Shown: positions 33,222 through 40,510 of the stretch, in pieces
How positions within the stretch are numbered: position 1 is the stretch's first letter
Layout: each line of letters begins with the position of its first letter
NCBI GenBank assembly: GCA_020853775.1
Contig: JADYYH010000062.1
Location: forward strand, 1 to 64,000
Reading direction: 5' to 3'
Length of the DNA stretch: 64,000 nt
DNA from: Nitrospira sp.
GTDB taxonomy: Bacteria; Nitrospirota; Nitrospiria; Nitrospirales; Nitrospiraceae
Position numbers and translations under genes: made by a program
Notes under the pieces: model-generated
Databases searched by the model: none
Told to the model about the DNA's origin: nothing
Seen by the model: the letters and a program-made list of their open reading frames with translations, nothing else

Positions 33222-34202
33222 TTATCGCTGAATTTTCAAGGTCGGTCCTAGTGTCAGCCACTTGGTCGGGCCGAGGGCGGCCATGTGCGGAAGGTGCGCG
33301 ACATACCAGACCACCACGTCCTGTTCCTGAACGCCTTGGTTGTCTTCGTCATAGCCCAACTGGCCGCGGGCCCCAAAGATCCAAGGGAGATCTTCTGCCG
33401 GGTTGGCTCGGCGAATGGCCACATCGAGGTCCCCAAACTTATCCCGTTCGCCGTCATTTTTCAGGGGAAGGTAGCCGTCGCCTGGCAGGATCCAGAGGCC
33501 ATGTCCCGTCGGCTGGTCGCGCACGAACCAGACACGCTCAGTAGCGGGGCTTTTCACGTCATTCCGTTCGTTCGTATATTTTCGCCAACCCGCTCCCCAG
33601 CCATTGTCGGGACCGCCGCGGTCGTGCACGAAGACCTGATCTAAACCGTTCCCGTTCACGTCGATGTCCAGTCGCCAGTACGGGTGATGATGATGATCGG
33701 TGTTGCAGGAGAGGCCGCGGCTGTGAAGGATGGGACGCATCTCGCCATCTTCGGAGAAATGCCAGGCCTGGTAGAGGTGGTATTCACCGATCCGGGCATA
33801 GGTGCCTATCTCCAGCCACTGGACCCCGTTCACAGTCGCACGGTCGACGCAGACCTTGTTGTCGGAACAGTTGGCGATCGGGGCCAGATCCTGCCAACGC
33901 AGTCGATCTTGGAAGGGGCCGCAGCGGCCGCTGTCTGCGCGTGAGCCGAACCAGGTGAAGGGATTCCACCAGACCCGCTCCTTCACGTACTTGACCCGCA
34001 CAACCGGCATGCTGGCTTTGCCCAAGACCATTTCGCCGCCGTATGACACGTTGCGCAGCGTGAGGCCGGTGTTGTCCCGAATTTCATAATCGAGGGCCCA
34101 ACGTCCCCATTCCAGATGTTCTGCGGCTGGCTCTGCTGAGCCGGTTATCGGAACCATGAGGATCCCAATCCAGAGGGCCAAGCCGATTGCTGTCCGATTC
34201 AT
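33222..34202 (-). CDS. exported copper amine oxidase C-terminal-domain-like protein
   Basis: A 326-residue protein with a signal peptide cleaved near TGSA-E. The sequence resembles the catalytic beta-sandwich of copper amine oxidases: VSYGGEMVLGKASMPVVRVKY early, EYHLYQAWHFSEDGEM near 138, then DHHHHPYWRLDIDVNGNGLDQ near 167, which matches the H-x-H copper-ligand strand. The topaquinone motif (N-Y-[DE]-Y) is altered: by alignment its Tyr is kept but Asn, Asp and the second Tyr are replaced (E-Y-H-L). Normal enzymes are about 600-700 residues with extra N-terminal domains, which are absent here but may be supplied by the next gene upstream. Last gene of a five-gene operon. Enzymatic activity is doubtful. 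Confidence 0.6.
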   Translation of the reverse strand: MNRTAIGLALWIGILMVPITGSAEPAAEHLEWGRWALDYEIRDNTGLTLRNVSYGGEMVLGKASMPVVRVKYVKERVWWNPFTWFGSRADSGRCGPFQDRLRWQDLAPIANCSDNKVCVDRATVNGVQWLEIGTYARIGEYHLYQAWHFSEDGEMRPILHSRGLSCNTDHHHHPYWRLDIDVNGNGLDQVFVHDRGGPDNGWGAGWRKYTNERNDVKSPATERVWFVRDQPTGHGLWILPGDGYLPLKNDGERDKFGDLDVAIRRANPAEDLPWIFGARGQLGYDEDNQGVQEQDVVVWYVAHLPHMAALGPTKWLTLGPTLKIQR

Positions 34203-34217
34203 CCCGGTTCCTTTCGC

Positions 34218-35012
34218 CTAGCGGGGCGGTTCCTGGCCCGCCTCCAAGACGCGATCGTCGGTCAGGTCCACGACGGCCCAGAACTTCGGGTCACCATCCT
34301 GTCCCTGCGAAAATGTGATCCAGATCGTGCGGTGTCCATACCCCGGATCATTCTTGAACAAGCCGATATCGGGCTGCATCAAGAGCCCGTGACCCTGCAG
34401 GGATTGCACGTGGCCTGCGAGGCGTGAGTCGGCGCGTGCCAACGCGATGCCTCGTTCGATATCCTGCGGTCCTTCGGGCGGGAGGTACCCATCGCGGCGG
34501 GCGGCATCGATGACTCGCTGCTCTTTCAGCCGCACTTCGACTGCGACATTTCGACTGTAGCTGAAGTAGGTGAGTCTGGCGATACGTGCTTCGTCCCGAC
34601 AGCAGCCGAAGGAAACCTTGCCCTCGGGTGTCGATCTATCCGCCTCAATAAAGCCCCAGCGGTCACCAAGCAATGCGGACACGCGCGGATCGGATTCGGC
34701 TGCTTTCCTCAAGGCCGCAATCTCGACAGGGCTGAGTATGGCACTCGGGTTCGGCGACCGTTTCAAGGCCGTTTCCGCGACCGCGCCGGCCATTGTGGGT
34801 TTGAGATGCCGACCCGGGGTTTCATCTGCCGTAAAGGCGAGGGCATGCCTCATCGGCACCTGTGAAGGGAGCGCCTGTTTAGGAATGGCGGTTTCCGGAT
34901 CCTCGGGACCGAATGGCCCCCGCGAGCCGGCATCAAGCGTACAGCCAGTAAAGAGCGCCAGCATCCAAGGCAGTGTGATCCATTTGGCGTACGGCTTCAT
35001 CATGTTAGACAT
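34218..35012 (-). CDS. lipoprotein resembling copper amine oxidase N-terminal domains
   Basis: A 264-residue protein with signal and lipobox LFTGC (Cys about residue 24). The mature part has LSPVEIAALRKAAESDPRV, a predicted strand-rich middle ending VAVEVRLKEQRVIDA, then IALARADSRLAGHVQSLQG and a final FWAVVDLTDDRVLEAG. This arrangement, with an ALA-type helix followed by V-D-L-x-x-x-x-V strands, resembles the N2/N3 domains that precede the catalytic domain in copper amine oxidases; the match is by pattern, not by search. It lies 15 bp upstream of the C-terminal-domain-like gene, suggesting that the two halves of the family are encoded separately. Three near-adjacent ATGs (35012, 35003, 35000) make the start uncertain. 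Confidence 0.5.
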   Translation of the reverse strand: MSNMMKPYAKWITLPWMLALFTGCTLDAGSRGPFGPEDPETAIPKQALPSQVPMRHALAFTADETPGRHLKPTMAGAVAETALKRSPNPSAILSPVEIAALRKAAESDPRVSALLGDRWGFIEADRSTPEGKVSFGCCRDEARIARLTYFSYSRNVAVEVRLKEQRVIDAARRDGYLPPEGPQDIERGIALARADSRLAGHVQSLQGHGLLMQPDIGLFKNDPGYGHRTIWITFSQGQDGDPKFWAVVDLTDDRVLEAGQEPPR

Positions 35013-35526
35013 GGGCCAGCTTACCGGCTACACCAAGAGCGAGTTTGGAGACCTGCGCGGCCGCCTTAATGGTGGCCGCGCGCCGCTTGCGCGTGGCGGC
35101 GTCTAAGATCGCCTTATTCAGCAGATCCTTGTAGGTGGCGATTTCCTCGGCTTCGAACGGCACGATGCGGGCGACGGTCTCGTTGTTGAAGGTATTGGCC
35201 AACTGAAGGTAGAGGTTGGCGATCTCGGCTGCATAGATGCCGCGCCGCAAGGGATCGTTTTTGTACATCTCGAATTTTTTCCGCAAGGTCGCCACAGCAT
35301 CCAGCAGGGCGGTCTGCCGCACCTTGGTGTCGTCTTCCCGCCCGACGCTGAATTCAGCCGTCCCCAGCTGATCCACCAAGATCTGGGCCTCTTCGCGGGC
35401 CTGGTCGACCTGCGTCGCCAATTGTTCGATCTGCGTGGTGGCGGACTCAGCGGTCTCCATCAGTTGCTTGATCAGATTGTCGTTGTCCTGAAGAAAGGTG
35501 ACCACGCCCTCGATGCTGCGGTTCAT
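35005..35526 (-). CDS. coiled-coil protein of unknown function
   Basis: A 173-residue protein without signal peptide. Residues about 15-95 are rich in heptad-like Leu/Ile/Gln/Glu (LIKQLMETAESATTQIEQL) and are predicted coiled coil; the C-terminal part is Ala/Lys-rich and ends in a short amphipathic stretch (KLALGVAGKLAHV). No family was recognised. GGAGGACTCC lies immediately before the ATG. It overlaps the following gene by eight bases and follows the previous one by 11 bp, so it is tightly bound into the operon of lipoproteins. Confidence 0.6.
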   Translation of the reverse strand: MNRSIEGVVTFLQDNDNLIKQLMETAESATTQIEQLATQVDQAREEAQILVDQLGTAEFSVGREDDTKVRQTALLDAVATLRKKFEMYKNDPLRRGIYAAEIANLYLQLANTFNNETVARIVPFEAEEIATYKDLLNKAILDAATRKRRAATIKAAAQVSKLALGVAGKLAHV

Positions 35527-35537
35527 GGAGTCCTCCG

Positions 35538-36248
35538 TTACTGTCCCTCTTCCCTCTGCATGCGGTCGAGCAGTTCCACGAGATCGGCGGTCATCCCCTG
35601 CGCGCGATCCAATCCGCCGATGCGGAGGATGCGAGCCCCGACTACTTCCTCCAGCGCGTCATTGACGGTGCGGGAATGGTCCAGGATGTCCATGATGCGT
35701 TCCGAGCCGCCGGGCGCCTGGTCCATGAGCGCGGTCACCAACTCTGGATCCACGGAAGCCAGGGCGGATTTCTTTGCAAAGCGCTGGATCTGCGCGTGGA
35801 GCGTGGCAGTCCGTTTCCAGGAATCGTTCAATGCATTGGCCGTGTCGCGAAGTCCGCAGAAGTCCTCCTCGAATTGGTCCCAGACGGCTTTCTCCAGGCC
35901 CTGAGCCTCGGCCATGTGAATCAGGCTCAGGAGGTAGGCGGCGGCATAGGCCGCTTCACCTTTTTTGTGAGTTGCCGCACGAAAAGCACCGAGGGCAAAG
36001 CGATGTTTGGCTTCCATGGTTTGTAGGGACTGGAAGCTCAGGTGTAATTCTGCCCGTGCCTTTTCCAGCAGCTTGATCCGCTCTTCCGTCTCCTTCTGAA
36101 ACGTATCGATGTTGGTTTGAGCCGCATCGATCTTCGTGCCCTCGAGTTGGATGAGGTCGCGGACAGAGCCGCTGTGGATCGAGTGGCATCCGGAGGACGT
36201 GAGGAGGAGGCCAAGGAGGGCGAATAAGGATACATGCCGTCCGATCAT
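35538..36248 (-). CDS. lipoprotein with helical mature domain
   Basis: A 236-residue protein with lipobox TSSGC (Cys about residue 21). The mature part is almost entirely helical, with an N-terminal coiled-coil-like stretch (IDTFQKETEERIKLLEKARAELH) and a C-terminal half containing an acidic-hydrophobic repeat. No family was recognised. AAGGAG lies seven bases before the ATG, which overlaps the stop of the upstream gene by ATGA (36245-36248), indicating coupled translation with the other lipoprotein. Confidence 0.65.
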   Translation of the reverse strand: MIGRHVSLFALLGLLLTSSGCHSIHSGSVRDLIQLEGTKIDAAQTNIDTFQKETEERIKLLEKARAELHLSFQSLQTMEAKHRFALGAFRAATHKKGEAAYAAAYLLSLIHMAEAQGLEKAVWDQFEEDFCGLRDTANALNDSWKRTATLHAQIQRFAKKSALASVDPELVTALMDQAPGGSERIMDILDHSRTVNDALEEVVGARILRIGGLDRAQGMTADLVELLDRMQREEGQ

Positions 36249-36886
36249 CGGAAACTCCTTCCGGTCTGCTGCAGCGTCTCTGCCAGGGATTGAACTTCGC
36301 CCCGATCGAGGGTGACGTCGATATCGAGGTAGTGTTTGATCATCCCGTTGATCCGTCGGAGGGCTTGGACATTCGTGCGATACCGATCGAAGGAAGAGAG
36401 ATCGAGGGCGGAAGGCTTCTTGGAGTCCTGGGCAACCATCTGCTCGACCCGGGTGATCAATGCGGGGAGTTTTTGGATCAGGTTGCTCATGTCCCCCGTC
36501 CCCGCCATGAAGATTGGTTGACCATTTGGCCCTTTGCGCTCAGGCAAGGATTTTAGGCGGATGTCGTTGACCACCGCCATCACCTCAGGCCCCAGGAGTG
36601 CCGCATCATCCTGCGCCATCTCGGGATCAGGTACCTCGATCAACCTGGGATTGGTGGTGGCCCACTGCAGAGCCAAATTCAATTTGAGTCGGGTTTGGAC
36701 ATGCCGGTACCAGAGCTGATGGCGCGTGGTGATCCGGCTCACGAGCTCACGATACTGCTGCATGAGCTGTTCATTCTCTGCGTACGCCTGGTCTTTCGTC
36801 GCGAGCGCCTGTTTGATCTCCGGCGGGGTCGTGCAGGCGGAAAGAAGTGCGAAGGTCAATATGCCGGTGATGGGCCACATCCTCAT
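36245..36886 (-). CDS. lipoprotein, first gene of the envelope operon
   Basis: A 213-residue protein with signal and lipobox LLSAC (Cys at about residue 18), followed by Thr-Thr-Pro-Pro. The mature protein is mainly helical with an amphipathic stretch (LVSRITTRHQLWYRHVQTRLK) and a central segment containing PNGQPIFMAGTGDMSNL. It has no recognised family. AGGAGG lies about eight bases before the ATG. A 21-bp palindrome lies 54 bp upstream, which probably controls the five-gene unit. All five genes run in the same direction with gaps of 15 bp or less or overlaps. Confidence 0.65.
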   Translation of the reverse strand: MRMWPITGILTFALLSACTTPPEIKQALATKDQAYAENEQLMQQYRELVSRITTRHQLWYRHVQTRLKLNLALQWATTNPRLIEVPDPEMAQDDAALLGPEVMAVVNDIRLKSLPERKGPNGQPIFMAGTGDMSNLIQKLPALITRVEQMVAQDSKKPSALDLSSFDRYRTNVQALRRINGMIKHYLDIDVTLDRGEVQSLAETLQQTGRSFR

Positions 36887-37120: not shown

Positions 37121-38935
37121 TCAGGCAGAGGTGAGGGCTTTACGTAATGCGGCGACGGTGGTGGCATCGAGGCCGGCCGACTTGAGTTGCTCGTCAGTGG
37201 CCGACGCGATTTGCGGAAGGCTGCCGAATTGTTTCAAGAGGCGTGCGCGACGGATCTTACCGATGCCCGGGATCTGGTCCAGTTCGGATGAGAGGAGGGC
37301 CTTGCCCCGCAGGTTCCGGTGATAGGTGATGGCAAACCGGTGGGCTTCATCCCGGATTCGCTGAACCAGATGCGTGGCGGGTGAGGTCGGCCGCAACAGG
37401 ATGGGATTTTTCCGGCCGGGTAGAAAAATGCGTTCGTCTTTTTCGCCACGCGCCTTCGCCAAGCCCATGATCGGAATGTGCTCCTGGCCAACCTGTTTCA
37501 GTCCTTCGCGGGCGGCACTCAATTGGCCCAAGCCGCCGTCGATCACAATCAGGTCCGGCCGGGCCAGATCCTCCGTGGCGCCGTACCGCCGCATCACGGC
37601 TTCTTGCATGCTGGCAAAGTCGTTGGCGCCTTCTACCGTCTGAATGCGGAATTTGCGGTAGTCGGATTTTTTCGCCTGCCCGTCTTCCCAGACGACCAAG
37701 GAGGCGACGGACTGATTACCCATGATGTTGGAAATGTCGAACCCTTCGATACGACGAGGCAGGGTTTCGAGGCGAAGCAGCCGTTTGAGTTCGGCCGTGG
37801 CCTGCCGATCAAGTGCTTCGTTCCGCAGATGGTCGGCAATGGCGGCGGCGGCATTTTCTTCCGCGAGCAGCACCAGTTGATGTTTCGCGCCTCGCTCCGG
37901 CGTGAGGAGGCGCACGGTATCGGCGCGTTTCTCACTCAGCCATTGTTCAATCAGCGGAGCGTCGACGAGGTCGGTCGGTACCAGGAGTTCTTTCGGCGGC
38001 TGTCCTTCCTTGTTGTAAAACTGCTCGATGGCAGACCGAACCAGTTCTTCATCGGCAGAATCGGCGGATTGCGGCCAGAAGAAATCCTTCCGGCCGATCA
38101 GCAGACCCCCGCGCACGAACAGGAGCTGAAGGTCTGCTGCCGCGCCTTGCCGCGCGATGCCGATCACATCCTGGTCTGTGGTGGTGACTTGGGTAATCCG
38201 CTGTTTCTCAAGTGTACGCTCGACGCTAAACAGGCGGTCGCGCAGGCGGGCGGCTTCCTCGAACTCCTCGCGTTCCGCCGCCGACTCCATGTCCTCGCGC
38301 AGACTGTCGAGGAGCTCCCGGTCCCGCCCTTCAAGAAACTGGCGGACTTGTTTGACGATCACATGATAGTCCTCACGGGACTGATTGCCGGTGCAAGGCG
38401 CCATGCAGCGTTTGATTTCAAATTCGATGCAGGCCCGGTCGGCCCGGCCGTCGATGTCGATGTCGCACGTGGCCAGCGGGAACGCCTTGCGGATGACTTT
38501 CAACGTCTCGCGCAGCGCCCCGGCCGGGGTATAGGGGCCGTAATAGAGCGCGCCGTCTTTTTGGACGCGCCGGACGATGGACAGGCGTGGAAACGATTCT
38601 TTGATCGGCAATCGAAGGTAGGGATACTGCTTGTCATCGCGCAGGACGATATTAAAGCGCGGGCGGTGGCGCTTGATCAGATTGCTTTCGAGGATCAGCG
38701 CTTCCAGCTCGGAACGGGTGACGATGGTTTCGAGGTCGGCGACTTCACTGACGAGCAGGCTGGTTTTGGGGGTCTGGTCGCTGCCCTTTTGAAAATAGGA
38801 GCGGACCCGATCAGCCAGCACGGCGGCCTTGCCGACATAGAGGATCTCTCTCTTCGCGTTCCGAAAGAGATAACAGCCTGGCTGTTCCGGCAGATGGTCG
38901 AGTTTGGATTGAAGGGTGTCGTACGAGTCAGCCAT
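37121..38935 (-). CDS. uvrC: excinuclease ABC subunit C
   Basis: A 604-residue protein of normal UvrC length. It has the N-terminal GIY-YIG nuclease (PGCYLFRNAKREILYVGKA), a UVR motif region near 200-235 (EREEFEEAARLRDRL) that contacts UvrB, the RNase H-like 5'-incision domain (FDISNIMGNQSVASLVVWEDG) and a C-terminal helix-hairpin-helix region (IPGIGKIRRARLLKQFGS). It makes both incisions in nucleotide-excision repair with UvrA and UvrB, which are not in the window. It is monocistronic in appearance. The region between it and the lipoprotein operon start (36887-37120) holds two dyads but no gene. Confidence 0.97.
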   Translation of the reverse strand: MADSYDTLQSKLDHLPEQPGCYLFRNAKREILYVGKAAVLADRVRSYFQKGSDQTPKTSLLVSEVADLETIVTRSELEALILESNLIKRHRPRFNIVLRDDKQYPYLRLPIKESFPRLSIVRRVQKDGALYYGPYTPAGALRETLKVIRKAFPLATCDIDIDGRADRACIEFEIKRCMAPCTGNQSREDYHVIVKQVRQFLEGRDRELLDSLREDMESAAEREEFEEAARLRDRLFSVERTLEKQRITQVTTTDQDVIGIARQGAAADLQLLFVRGGLLIGRKDFFWPQSADSADEELVRSAIEQFYNKEGQPPKELLVPTDLVDAPLIEQWLSEKRADTVRLLTPERGAKHQLVLLAEENAAAAIADHLRNEALDRQATAELKRLLRLETLPRRIEGFDISNIMGNQSVASLVVWEDGQAKKSDYRKFRIQTVEGANDFASMQEAVMRRYGATEDLARPDLIVIDGGLGQLSAAREGLKQVGQEHIPIMGLAKARGEKDERIFLPGRKNPILLRPTSPATHLVQRIRDEAHRFAITYHRNLRGKALLSSELDQIPGIGKIRRARLLKQFGSLPQIASATDEQLKSAGLDATTVAALRKALTSA

Positions 38936-39058: not shown

Positions 39059-39928
39059 TTAGCGAAGCGTTCGCACAAACGACGGGCTCAGGCTGCCTCG
39101 GGCGACTTCCGCCACGGGTCCTTTCATGGTCAGACTGAAATCCTTCGCAACCTGGATGTTGAGTGTCCCCCCCGGCATCTTGACCGTGACCGGTCCCTTC
39201 ACGAGCCCCAATTTCACGGCGGCGCTCGCTGCCGCGCAGGAGGAGGAACCGGAGGCCTGGGTTTCCCCGGCGCCGCGTTCCCAGATCAGAATGAAGATTT
39301 CTTTTGGCCCGGTGGGCACGGCTAGTTGAACATTGGTGCGTTTGGGAAACAGCGGATGGTTTTCCAGGGCTGGTCCCAGCGTAAGGAGCTCGTCACGCGT
39401 CCAGGCTTGACCGGCTTCTTTGAACAGCACGCAGTGCGGATTCCCGACGCTGACACCCGTAAATTGCAACGACCGTCCTGCCGCCTCGATGGGCGCCTGG
39501 ATCAACTCCTCGACGGACAAGGTACAGGGAAGCGCGGCCGGTTGGAAAGTCGCCTGGCCCATCTCTACTGTCGCTGCCGCCGCATCTCCATGGCGATCCA
39601 CATGGAGCGTGATTGACACGAGACCGCCCTTTGTCTCGACCGTGAAGGCGCGTTTTTTCGTTTTACCGGTGGCATGCAGGTAGCGGGCGAAGATGCGGAG
39701 TCCGTTGCCGGATTTCTCGGCTTCGCTGCCGTCGGGGTTGTAAATGCGCAGACCGAAATCGGCCTTCTTCGACGGGACCAGCGCGAGGATGCCGTCGCTC
39801 CCGAGTCCCCAATGGCGGTCGCAAATGCCGCGAATTTTGCCGGGGATCAGGCTGAAGCTGAGCTCCTTGGGGTCCATGACCACATAGTCGTTGCCGAGTC
39901 CGTGCCCGCGAAAAAACCCGTTCTTCAT
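39059..39928 (-). CDS. DapF-family epimerase homologue with both catalytic Cys replaced by Ser
   Basis: A 289-residue protein with the DapF fold: FRGHGLGNDYVVMDP start, SGNGLRIFARYL and GETQASGSSSCAAASA. In diaminopimelate epimerase the two-base mechanism uses Cys in C-G-N-G-x-R and in A-C-G-T/S-G. Here both positions are Ser (codon TCC in both), while neighbouring residues are conserved. Such an enzyme would be expected to be inactive or to act on another substrate, since Ser is a poor general base in this mechanism. ATG 39928 has AAGGAG upstream; the frame is open to 40009 but that part has no DapF sequence. If the genome has no other dapF, lysine and peptidoglycan synthesis would need another route. 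Confidence 0.85.
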   Translation of the reverse strand: MKNGFFRGHGLGNDYVVMDPKELSFSLIPGKIRGICDRHWGLGSDGILALVPSKKADFGLRIYNPDGSEAEKSGNGLRIFARYLHATGKTKKRAFTVETKGGLVSITLHVDRHGDAAAATVEMGQATFQPAALPCTLSVEELIQAPIEAAGRSLQFTGVSVGNPHCVLFKEAGQAWTRDELLTLGPALENHPLFPKRTNVQLAVPTGPKEIFILIWERGAGETQASGSSSCAAASAAVKLGLVKGPVTVKMPGGTLNIQVAKDFSLTMKGPVAEVARGSLSPSFVRTLR

Positions 39929-39958
39929 CTGCACTCTCCTTGTTCGTCGTTGGTCGCT

Positions 39959-40111: not shown

Positions 40112-40510
40112 TTACACGAGCGCCGTCCCGGGCGGGCGTTCGATGAGTTCCACTTCATACCCGTCCGGCGCGTCGATAAAGATAAAACGGCTGCCGGAGG
40201 ACGTGCGTGTGGGACCGTCGGTAATCCGGATGCCGTTGGATTCCAGGCTCTGGATGGTCTCGTCCAGGTTTTCGACTTCGAAGGCCAGATGGACCAGATC
40301 CTCCTGCACGGTCACCGGTCCGCTCGCGGGAAAGCTGCACAGTTCGATGAGTTCGTCGCTGTTCGGAACTTTCAAAAAGGCCAAGTGTGACCCGCGCGGA
40401 GACACCTTGCGTTCCAGCACCTCCAGTCCCAACACAGTCTGGTAGAAGCGGATGGTGTGATCCATGTCGCTGACGCGCATGCGCGTGTGTAATAGCTTTG
40501 TGACTCGCAT
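40112..40510 (-). CDS. VOC/glyoxalase I family metalloprotein
   Basis: A 132-residue protein with two beta-alpha-beta-beta-beta modules. The four expected metal ligands of glyoxalase I are visible: His in LLHTRMRV, Glu in ELIELCSF, His in DLVHLAFEV and Glu in YEVELIE. RFYQTVLGLEVL is the typical first helix. The length and ligand set fit lactoylglutathione lyase (methylglyoxal detoxification), but other VOC enzymes share them, so the symbol is withheld. AGGAG precedes the ATG. A 121-bp palindromic element lies 18 bp upstream of its start. Confidence 0.85.
   Translation of the reverse strand: MRVTKLLHTRMRVSDMDHTIRFYQTVLGLEVLERKVSPRGSHLAFLKVPNSDELIELCSFPASGPVTVQEDLVHLAFEVENLDETIQSLESNGIRITDGPTRTSSGSRFIFIDAPDGYEVELIERPPGTALV

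Follow-up and report, generated by a model that had tools for sequence, protein, structure and literature searches.

A DapF-type protein of Nitrospira with serines at both catalytic cysteine positions belongs to a widespread clade of probable DAP epimerases

The gene at positions 39059..39928 (reverse strand) of the window, by which we mean the whole stretch of 64,000 nucleotides of Nitrospira DNA analysed here, encodes a DapF-type protein in which serines, Ser73 and Ser226, replace both catalytic cysteines. This change marks an old branch under strong constraint that is found in many phyla. The protein is likely to be a DAP epimerase, whatever its mechanism. The explanation that we favour, with a probability of roughly 0.55, is a DAP epimerase that uses Ser73 and Ser226 as its acid-base pair. 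Both the epimerisation of DAP by the Ser-Ser protein and the transfer of protons by the serines themselves are, we infer, probable.

Cofactor-independent amino acid racemases have a textbook mechanism in which a Cys thiol/thiolate pair is matched to a carbon acid that is very weak. Whether a thiol is needed can be tested directly with a DapF clade that occurs naturally, is widespread and has neither Cys. We found no description of a Ser-Ser DapF clade in the open-access literature searched. We would give even odds that a large, old clade of DAP epimerases carries out cofactor-free epimerisation at the alpha carbon with a Ser/Ser pair and no thiol, and that it provides the only DAP epimerase in many phyla. 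If this is true, inhibitors of DapF that are based on aziridine or directed at thiols would not be expected to modify the Ser-Ser form in the same manner. Pathway annotation and antibiotic design targeting the DapF cysteines may also miss a large bacterial group.

The protein and its active site

The open reading frame starts with the ATG at 39928, codes for 289 amino acids and is preceded on the same strand by a Shine-Dalgarno sequence read from the DNA, AAGGAGAG (39934..39941). Its product is a full-length DapF homologue, with 224.8 bits against TIGR00652 (cut-off 114.65) and 178.3 bits against PF01678 (cut-off 34.7), and the solved structures closest to it are nearly all DAP epimerases. Aligned with solved DapFs, the first site reads EAEKSGNG versus EVEQCGNG, and the second TQASGSSSC versus TQACGTGAC. 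The catalytic Cys pair (Cys73 and Cys217 in H. influenzae) is absent; its places are taken by Ser73, within EKSGNG, and Ser226, both encoded by TCC (39710..39712 and 39251..39253, reverse strand). The first-pass annotation had described a DapF homologue with both catalytic cysteines changed to serine, and the reality of the reading frame, the alignment with solved structures and the two codons bear this out. Because the Cys pair is missing, we have not filed the protein as a canonical DapF: judged by its sequence, it is a homologue that fails one defining feature.

The same annotation held the surroundings of the two sites to be otherwise conserved; this has to be qualified for Lys72, Ile79, Tyr15 and Ser229, all of which are specific to the clade. 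The DAP-contact positions compared are, in H. influenzae numbering, N11, N64, N75, N157, N190, E208 and R209, and their roles are known from solved DapFs (PMC5296763, PMC12039745). In the clade, N13, N64, N75, N163, N199, E217, R218 and H165 are each identical in 97-98 of the 98 members aligned. Since the contact residues are unchanged, the substrate site appears to have been kept and the acid-base pair replaced. Lys72 (39713..39715, reverse strand) stands directly before Ser73, in a loop around the substrate (loop position from PMC12039745), and Tyr15 (39884..39886, reverse strand) is equivalent to the active-site Phe22 of chlamydial DapF (PMC5885031). Subject to the ascertainment described below, Lys72 is invariant (98/98), with Met or Gln at this position in Cys-Cys DapF; Tyr15 is found in 97 of the 98 members, whereas among Cys-Cys relatives of the WERGA type 38 of 39 have Phe here. 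Ile79 replaces a third, non-catalytic conserved Cys of Cys-Cys DapF, and Ser229, fixed in the clade, corresponds to Gly there. Pro65 and Gln201 are likewise fixed.

An AlphaFold2 model of the protein (pLDDT 94.1) predicts the two-domain DapF fold. Its best match is 9mro, a cyanobacterial DAP epimerase in the closed state (Z 36.9, 1.9 A over 271 residues), followed by O-ureidoserine racemase and other DapFs. Ser73 and Ser226 are modelled directly ahead of helices 74-86 and 227-239, in the positions of the catalytic cysteines.

Extent and constraint of the Ser-Ser clade

Both serines are fixed in all 98 clade members aligned, which come from many phyla, with the qualification that the conservation of Ser73, like that of Lys72, is partly ascertained in the GTDB-derived set because EAEKSGNG was one of the patterns used to search for GTDB relatives. 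Ser226 is free of this ascertainment, and 20 Nitrospirota sequences found without the pattern agree. In a tree from which the two catalytic columns had been removed beforehand, the 98 sequences are set apart from all others by a branch with an SH-aLRT value of 100. A sequencing or assembly error is ruled out because the same two serines recur in 98 sequences from independent genomes across many phyla; recent decay is likewise ruled out by full-length ORFs and deep conservation.

The codons bear on the nature of this constraint. Ser73 is encoded by AGY in 66 sequences and by TCN in 32, and the tree requires at least four switches between the two; Ser226 is encoded by TCN in 97 and AGY in one. 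AGC, AGT, TCC and TCT, which make up most of the Ser codons of the clade, are one base away from Cys, and Cys never appears. The earlier suggestion that two matched substitutions are unlikely to be the product of drift is borne out, because Ser is fixed in all 98 sequences, at position 73 through both of its codon families, though Cys is mostly a single base away.

A scan of GTDB genome contigs returned at least 580 relatives, many of them MAGs whose names may be wrong. Among the best 80 of these, Ser occupies each covered site, one partial row excepted; they include Dadabacteria, Aquificota, Bacteroidota, Methylomirabilota, Rokubacteria, Gemmatimonadota, Myxococcota, cyanobacteria, Verrucomicrobiota, Planctomycetota, Pseudomonadota, Bacillota and others. 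A mobile origin was rejected, as no match of at least 60% identity was found in plasmid or phage records.

Two sequences of family f11 (L044:5004-5801 and L058:4141-4938) are the most divergent of the Ser-Ser type; their second site reads ASGTGAS, not ASGSSSC. They form the earliest branch of the clade and coexist with a Cys-Cys DapF beside lysA. Two genera of the window's family, Nitrospiraceae, that have no Ser-Ser form (G060 and G143) carry a YERGVE-type DapF whose first site is Ser and whose second is Cys (L034:5004-5735 and L035:5004-5735); it adjoins lysA and has a separate origin on the tree.

Copy number, pathway and gene neighbourhood

The window's genome (G000; 4.25 Mb in 121 contigs, rated 100% complete and 4.6% contaminated) yielded no second DapF homologue in a DapF profile search, the sole match being the window gene itself (100% self match). 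In complete or near-complete relatives, too, no DapF homologue other than the Ser-Ser gene is present. The first-pass annotation had proposed searching the genome for another dapF or a dapL: the former is absent, whereas a DapL over the cut-off is present. We read about 70 Nitrospirota DapF loci, found with the DapF model and hence unbiased towards serine. Among the loci read, the Ser-Ser gene is a single copy in the window's genus, in all but two of its sister genera and in two further families, the neighbouring f2 and f14, and the other families have Cys-Cys forms. Two DapF genes each are present in three f11 genomes; in the two that were read (G006 and G025), the Cys-Cys gene adjoins lysA and the other is Ser-Ser. 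One f14 genome (G028) has two different Ser-Ser copies (L045 and L046), and another genome (G192, L178) has an intact and a broken one close together on a single contig.

Cys-Cys DapF is absent from 37 of the 45 other genomes reached through Ser-Ser loci, including that of the isolate Tangfeifania diversioriginum DSM 27063; 36 of the 37 have a single DapF match and one a second, broken Ser-Ser copy, counts to be read in the light of most of the named genomes being MAGs that lack completeness figures. The remaining eight have a canonical second DapF: two Pseudomonas, Westiellopsis, Aphanothece, Clostridium LS and a close relative, a Paludibacter MAG and an Actinobacteria MAG. As these eight hold both kinds, some Ser-Ser copies may do something else. 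Loci of this sort include L161 and L169 (Pseudomonas nitroreducens TX1 and Pseudomonas sp. 21), L158 (Westiellopsis) and L139 (Clostridium sp. LS); in the two Pseudomonas loci, the Ser-Ser gene is followed by a gene that, by eye, resembles a sodium-coupled symporter.

The pathway around the protein calls for an epimerase. LysA is over the cut-off in all 17 Nitrospirota genomes checked and DapL (TIGR03540 type) in 12 of them, including the window's genome and all f1/f2 genomes tested; Ddh (TIGR01921) is over the cut-off in none of the 17. Among 34 Ser-Ser-only genomes outside this set, LysA is over the cut-off in 21 and near full length below it in about ten more, and Ddh is over the cut-off in one. 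The MurE proteins of the window's genome and its relatives carry a DNPR motif, which we take to be associated with meso-DAP ligases. Since DapL makes LL-DAP, LysA and MurE use meso-DAP and there is no Ddh, something must convert LL-DAP, and the Ser-Ser protein is the only recognisable enzyme between the compound made and the compound used.

Bypasses of this step were considered. For Ddh, nothing is over the cut-off; the 99-bit match on contig C105 of the window's genome is sub-threshold and missing from other Ser-Ser relatives, and we rejected this route. Within the genus, nearly full-length sub-threshold Ddh relatives of 99-117 bits (G000:C105:85909-86700, L074; L072; L073) are present in three of the four members searched and absent in G141. 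A PLP-type DapF2 is disfavoured, as six Ser-Ser Nitrospirota genomes each have exactly one alanine racemase match (TIGR00492) and no extra Alr homologue; some Bacteroidota have two or three TIGR00492 matches, mostly weak. The Nitrospira genomes searched contained no other Asp/Glu-type racemase that might act as a DAP epimerase.

In the window, the gene is flanked downstream by uvrC (37121..38935, reverse strand), which lies beside it in most Nitrospiraceae, and upstream by a gene for a VOC/glyoxalase-like protein (40112..40510, reverse strand). Neither is a DAP gene, and the conserved Nitrospiraceae neighbours (uvrC, VOC, GNAT) give no functional clue. A row of small lipoprotein-like and secreted-looking ORFs lies downstream of uvrC (33222-36886, reverse strand). 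Elsewhere in the window's genome, dapA, dapB and lysA are clustered, and dapL lies some 12 kb from them. Nine Bacteroidota loci (L123, L131, L133, L134, L138, L147, L150, L156 and L175) have the Ser-Ser gene some 0.03-1.3 kb from a dapL of the plant type and/or from a lysA homologue, as identified with NCBIfam; the Paludibacter MAG holds both kinds, and there dapL comes next after the Cys-Cys dapF. The sole-copy and linkage data thus suggest that the Ser-Ser gene stands in for dapF in the pathway and also, among Bacteroidota, in the cluster. A neighbour cluster of 446 aa was discarded, as it appears to be an antisense ORF of dapF itself in GC-rich loci.

Function, alternatives and known systems

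We propose that LL-DAP made by DapL would be converted by the Ser-Ser protein to meso-DAP, which would then feed MurE for peptidoglycan and LysA for lysine. Ser73 and Ser226 would serve as the acid-base pair at the DAP alpha carbon, and the clade-specific Lys72, Tyr15 and Ser229 may tune the serines. This explanation is supported because the protein is the sole DapF in genomes that need LL-to-meso epimerisation and because it keeps the DAP-contact residues. The same evidence, together with the linkage to dapL and lysA in Bacteroidota, disfavours both a different substrate and a structural or regulatory role, as suggested in the first-pass annotation. There are precedents for a catalytic Ser in this fold: the 4-hydroxyproline epimerase B9JQV3 has a Ser/Cys pair, and in the dehydratase B9K4G4 a catalytic Ser faces a Thr (eLife.03275). 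Against a Ser/Ser pair, Ser has been argued to be a poorer base (PMC8142540), the C83A and C221A variants of CgDapF lose nearly all activity (PMC5296763), and Cys-to-Ser changes in DapF and HisR are described as hindering or slowing catalysis. Also against the explanation, a Cys-to-Thr change turned an epimerase into a dehydratase, the Nitrospira gene adjoins uvrC and not DAP genes, and a non-homologous epimerase may be beyond the reach of homology searches.

The main rival keeps the reaction and changes the chemistry: the bases would be Lys72 and/or Tyr15, a bound water or a cofactor, and the serines would only bind or position the substrate. We regard this as possible, if clearly a minority view. 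Both residues are nearly invariant (98/98 and 97/98) where Cys-Cys DapFs have Met and Phe, and in solved or modelled DapFs the corresponding loop and Phe border the active site (PMC5885031, PMC12039745). In Anabaena DapF, no basic residue comes within 4 A of the catalytic sulfurs (PMC12039745), so that Lys72 would be a new feature beside the site. Chlamydial DapF shows a side activity that depends on PLP (PMC5885031). However, Ser73 and Ser226 are modelled at the very helix N-terminal positions of the cysteines, this fold has established cases of a catalytic Ser at the first site (eLife.03275), and the conservation of Lys72 is partly ascertained through the EAEKSGNG pattern.

It is rather unlikely that the protein binds DAP or a similar molecule for another reaction (dehydration, one-base exchange or a reaction on another amino acid) while an unrelated and unrecognised enzyme makes meso-DAP. 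Loss of one Cys turned an epimerase into a dehydratase in related enzymes, the PLP-type 'DapF2' was proposed as a DapF replacement in Staphylococcus and others (PMC9026213), and eight genomes have a Cys-Cys DapF in addition to the Ser-Ser copy. Nevertheless, the DAP-contact residues are retained, the protein is the sole DapF across many phyla, six Nitrospirota genomes have one Alr and no Ddh, and the gene is linked to dapL and lysA in the nine Bacteroidota loci.

That the Nitrospira protein mainly or also supplies D-glutamate, like the bifunctional Glu racemase/DapF of Chlamydia (PMC5885031), seems highly improbable. This idea stems from the lack of a recognisable glutamate racemase (TIGR00067 or PF01177) in the window's genome and the class relatives searched: there is no TIGR00067 match in that genome, 11 other f1/f2 genomes tested, G119, G131 or G006, and no PF01177 match in G000, G141, G145, G110 or G081. 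Yet MurI is equally missing alongside Cys-Cys or Ser/Cys DapFs (G119, G131, G060, G143) and present in other Ser-Ser genomes (G019, G010), and the site that takes the distal carboxylate of DAP is intact. A catalytically inactive paralogue retained for a structural or regulatory role, as the loss of both residues needed in Cys-type DapFs might suggest, is just as hard to credit where organisms in need of the reaction have no other copy, with a whole active site strongly constrained over a deep clade and Cys never used although most Ser codons are one base from it.

Returning to a Ser/Ser DAP epimerase, its closest known counterpart is canonical DapF (EC 5.1.1.7; PF01678, TIGR00652), with which the protein shares fold, length, substrate-contact residues and pathway context, with scores far above the cut-off. 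It differs by the Ser/Ser pair, by Ile79 in place of the third Cys and by the clade-specific Lys72, Tyr15 and Ser229. The PLP 'DapF2' of Staphylococcus (PMC9026213) is another solution to a missing Cys-Cys DapF, but it is an unrelated alanine-racemase-like enzyme, and Nitrospira has a single Alr homologue. The bifunctional chlamydial DapF/Glu racemase (NF038284) shares the DapF fold and is matched weakly (46.8 bits, cut-off 350); unlike the window protein, it keeps both Cys. B9JQV3 (Ser93/Cys) and B9K4G4, a trans-3-hydroxyproline dehydratase (Ser90/Thr256), have the two-domain fold and a natural Ser that acts as catalytic base at the first site (eLife.03275). They belong to another family, the proline racemase superfamily, whose fold matches reach Z 26-28 at about 15% identity; they act on other substrates, and no Ser/Ser epimerase pair is documented among them. 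In the Ser-containing enzymes of this superfamily, an Asn follows the first-site Ser at a short distance (Ser90...Asn93); the window protein has Ser73-Gly-Asn75, with a different spacing, and Asn75 is conserved in Cys-type DapF too. The H. influenzae DapF mutants C73S (2q9h; fold Z 34.2) and C217S (2q9j; 33.6) each have one of the two substitutions. They are single mutants made in the laboratory, and mutants of this kind are made because the change hinders catalysis, whereas the double change of the clade is natural, fixed and accompanied by other changes.
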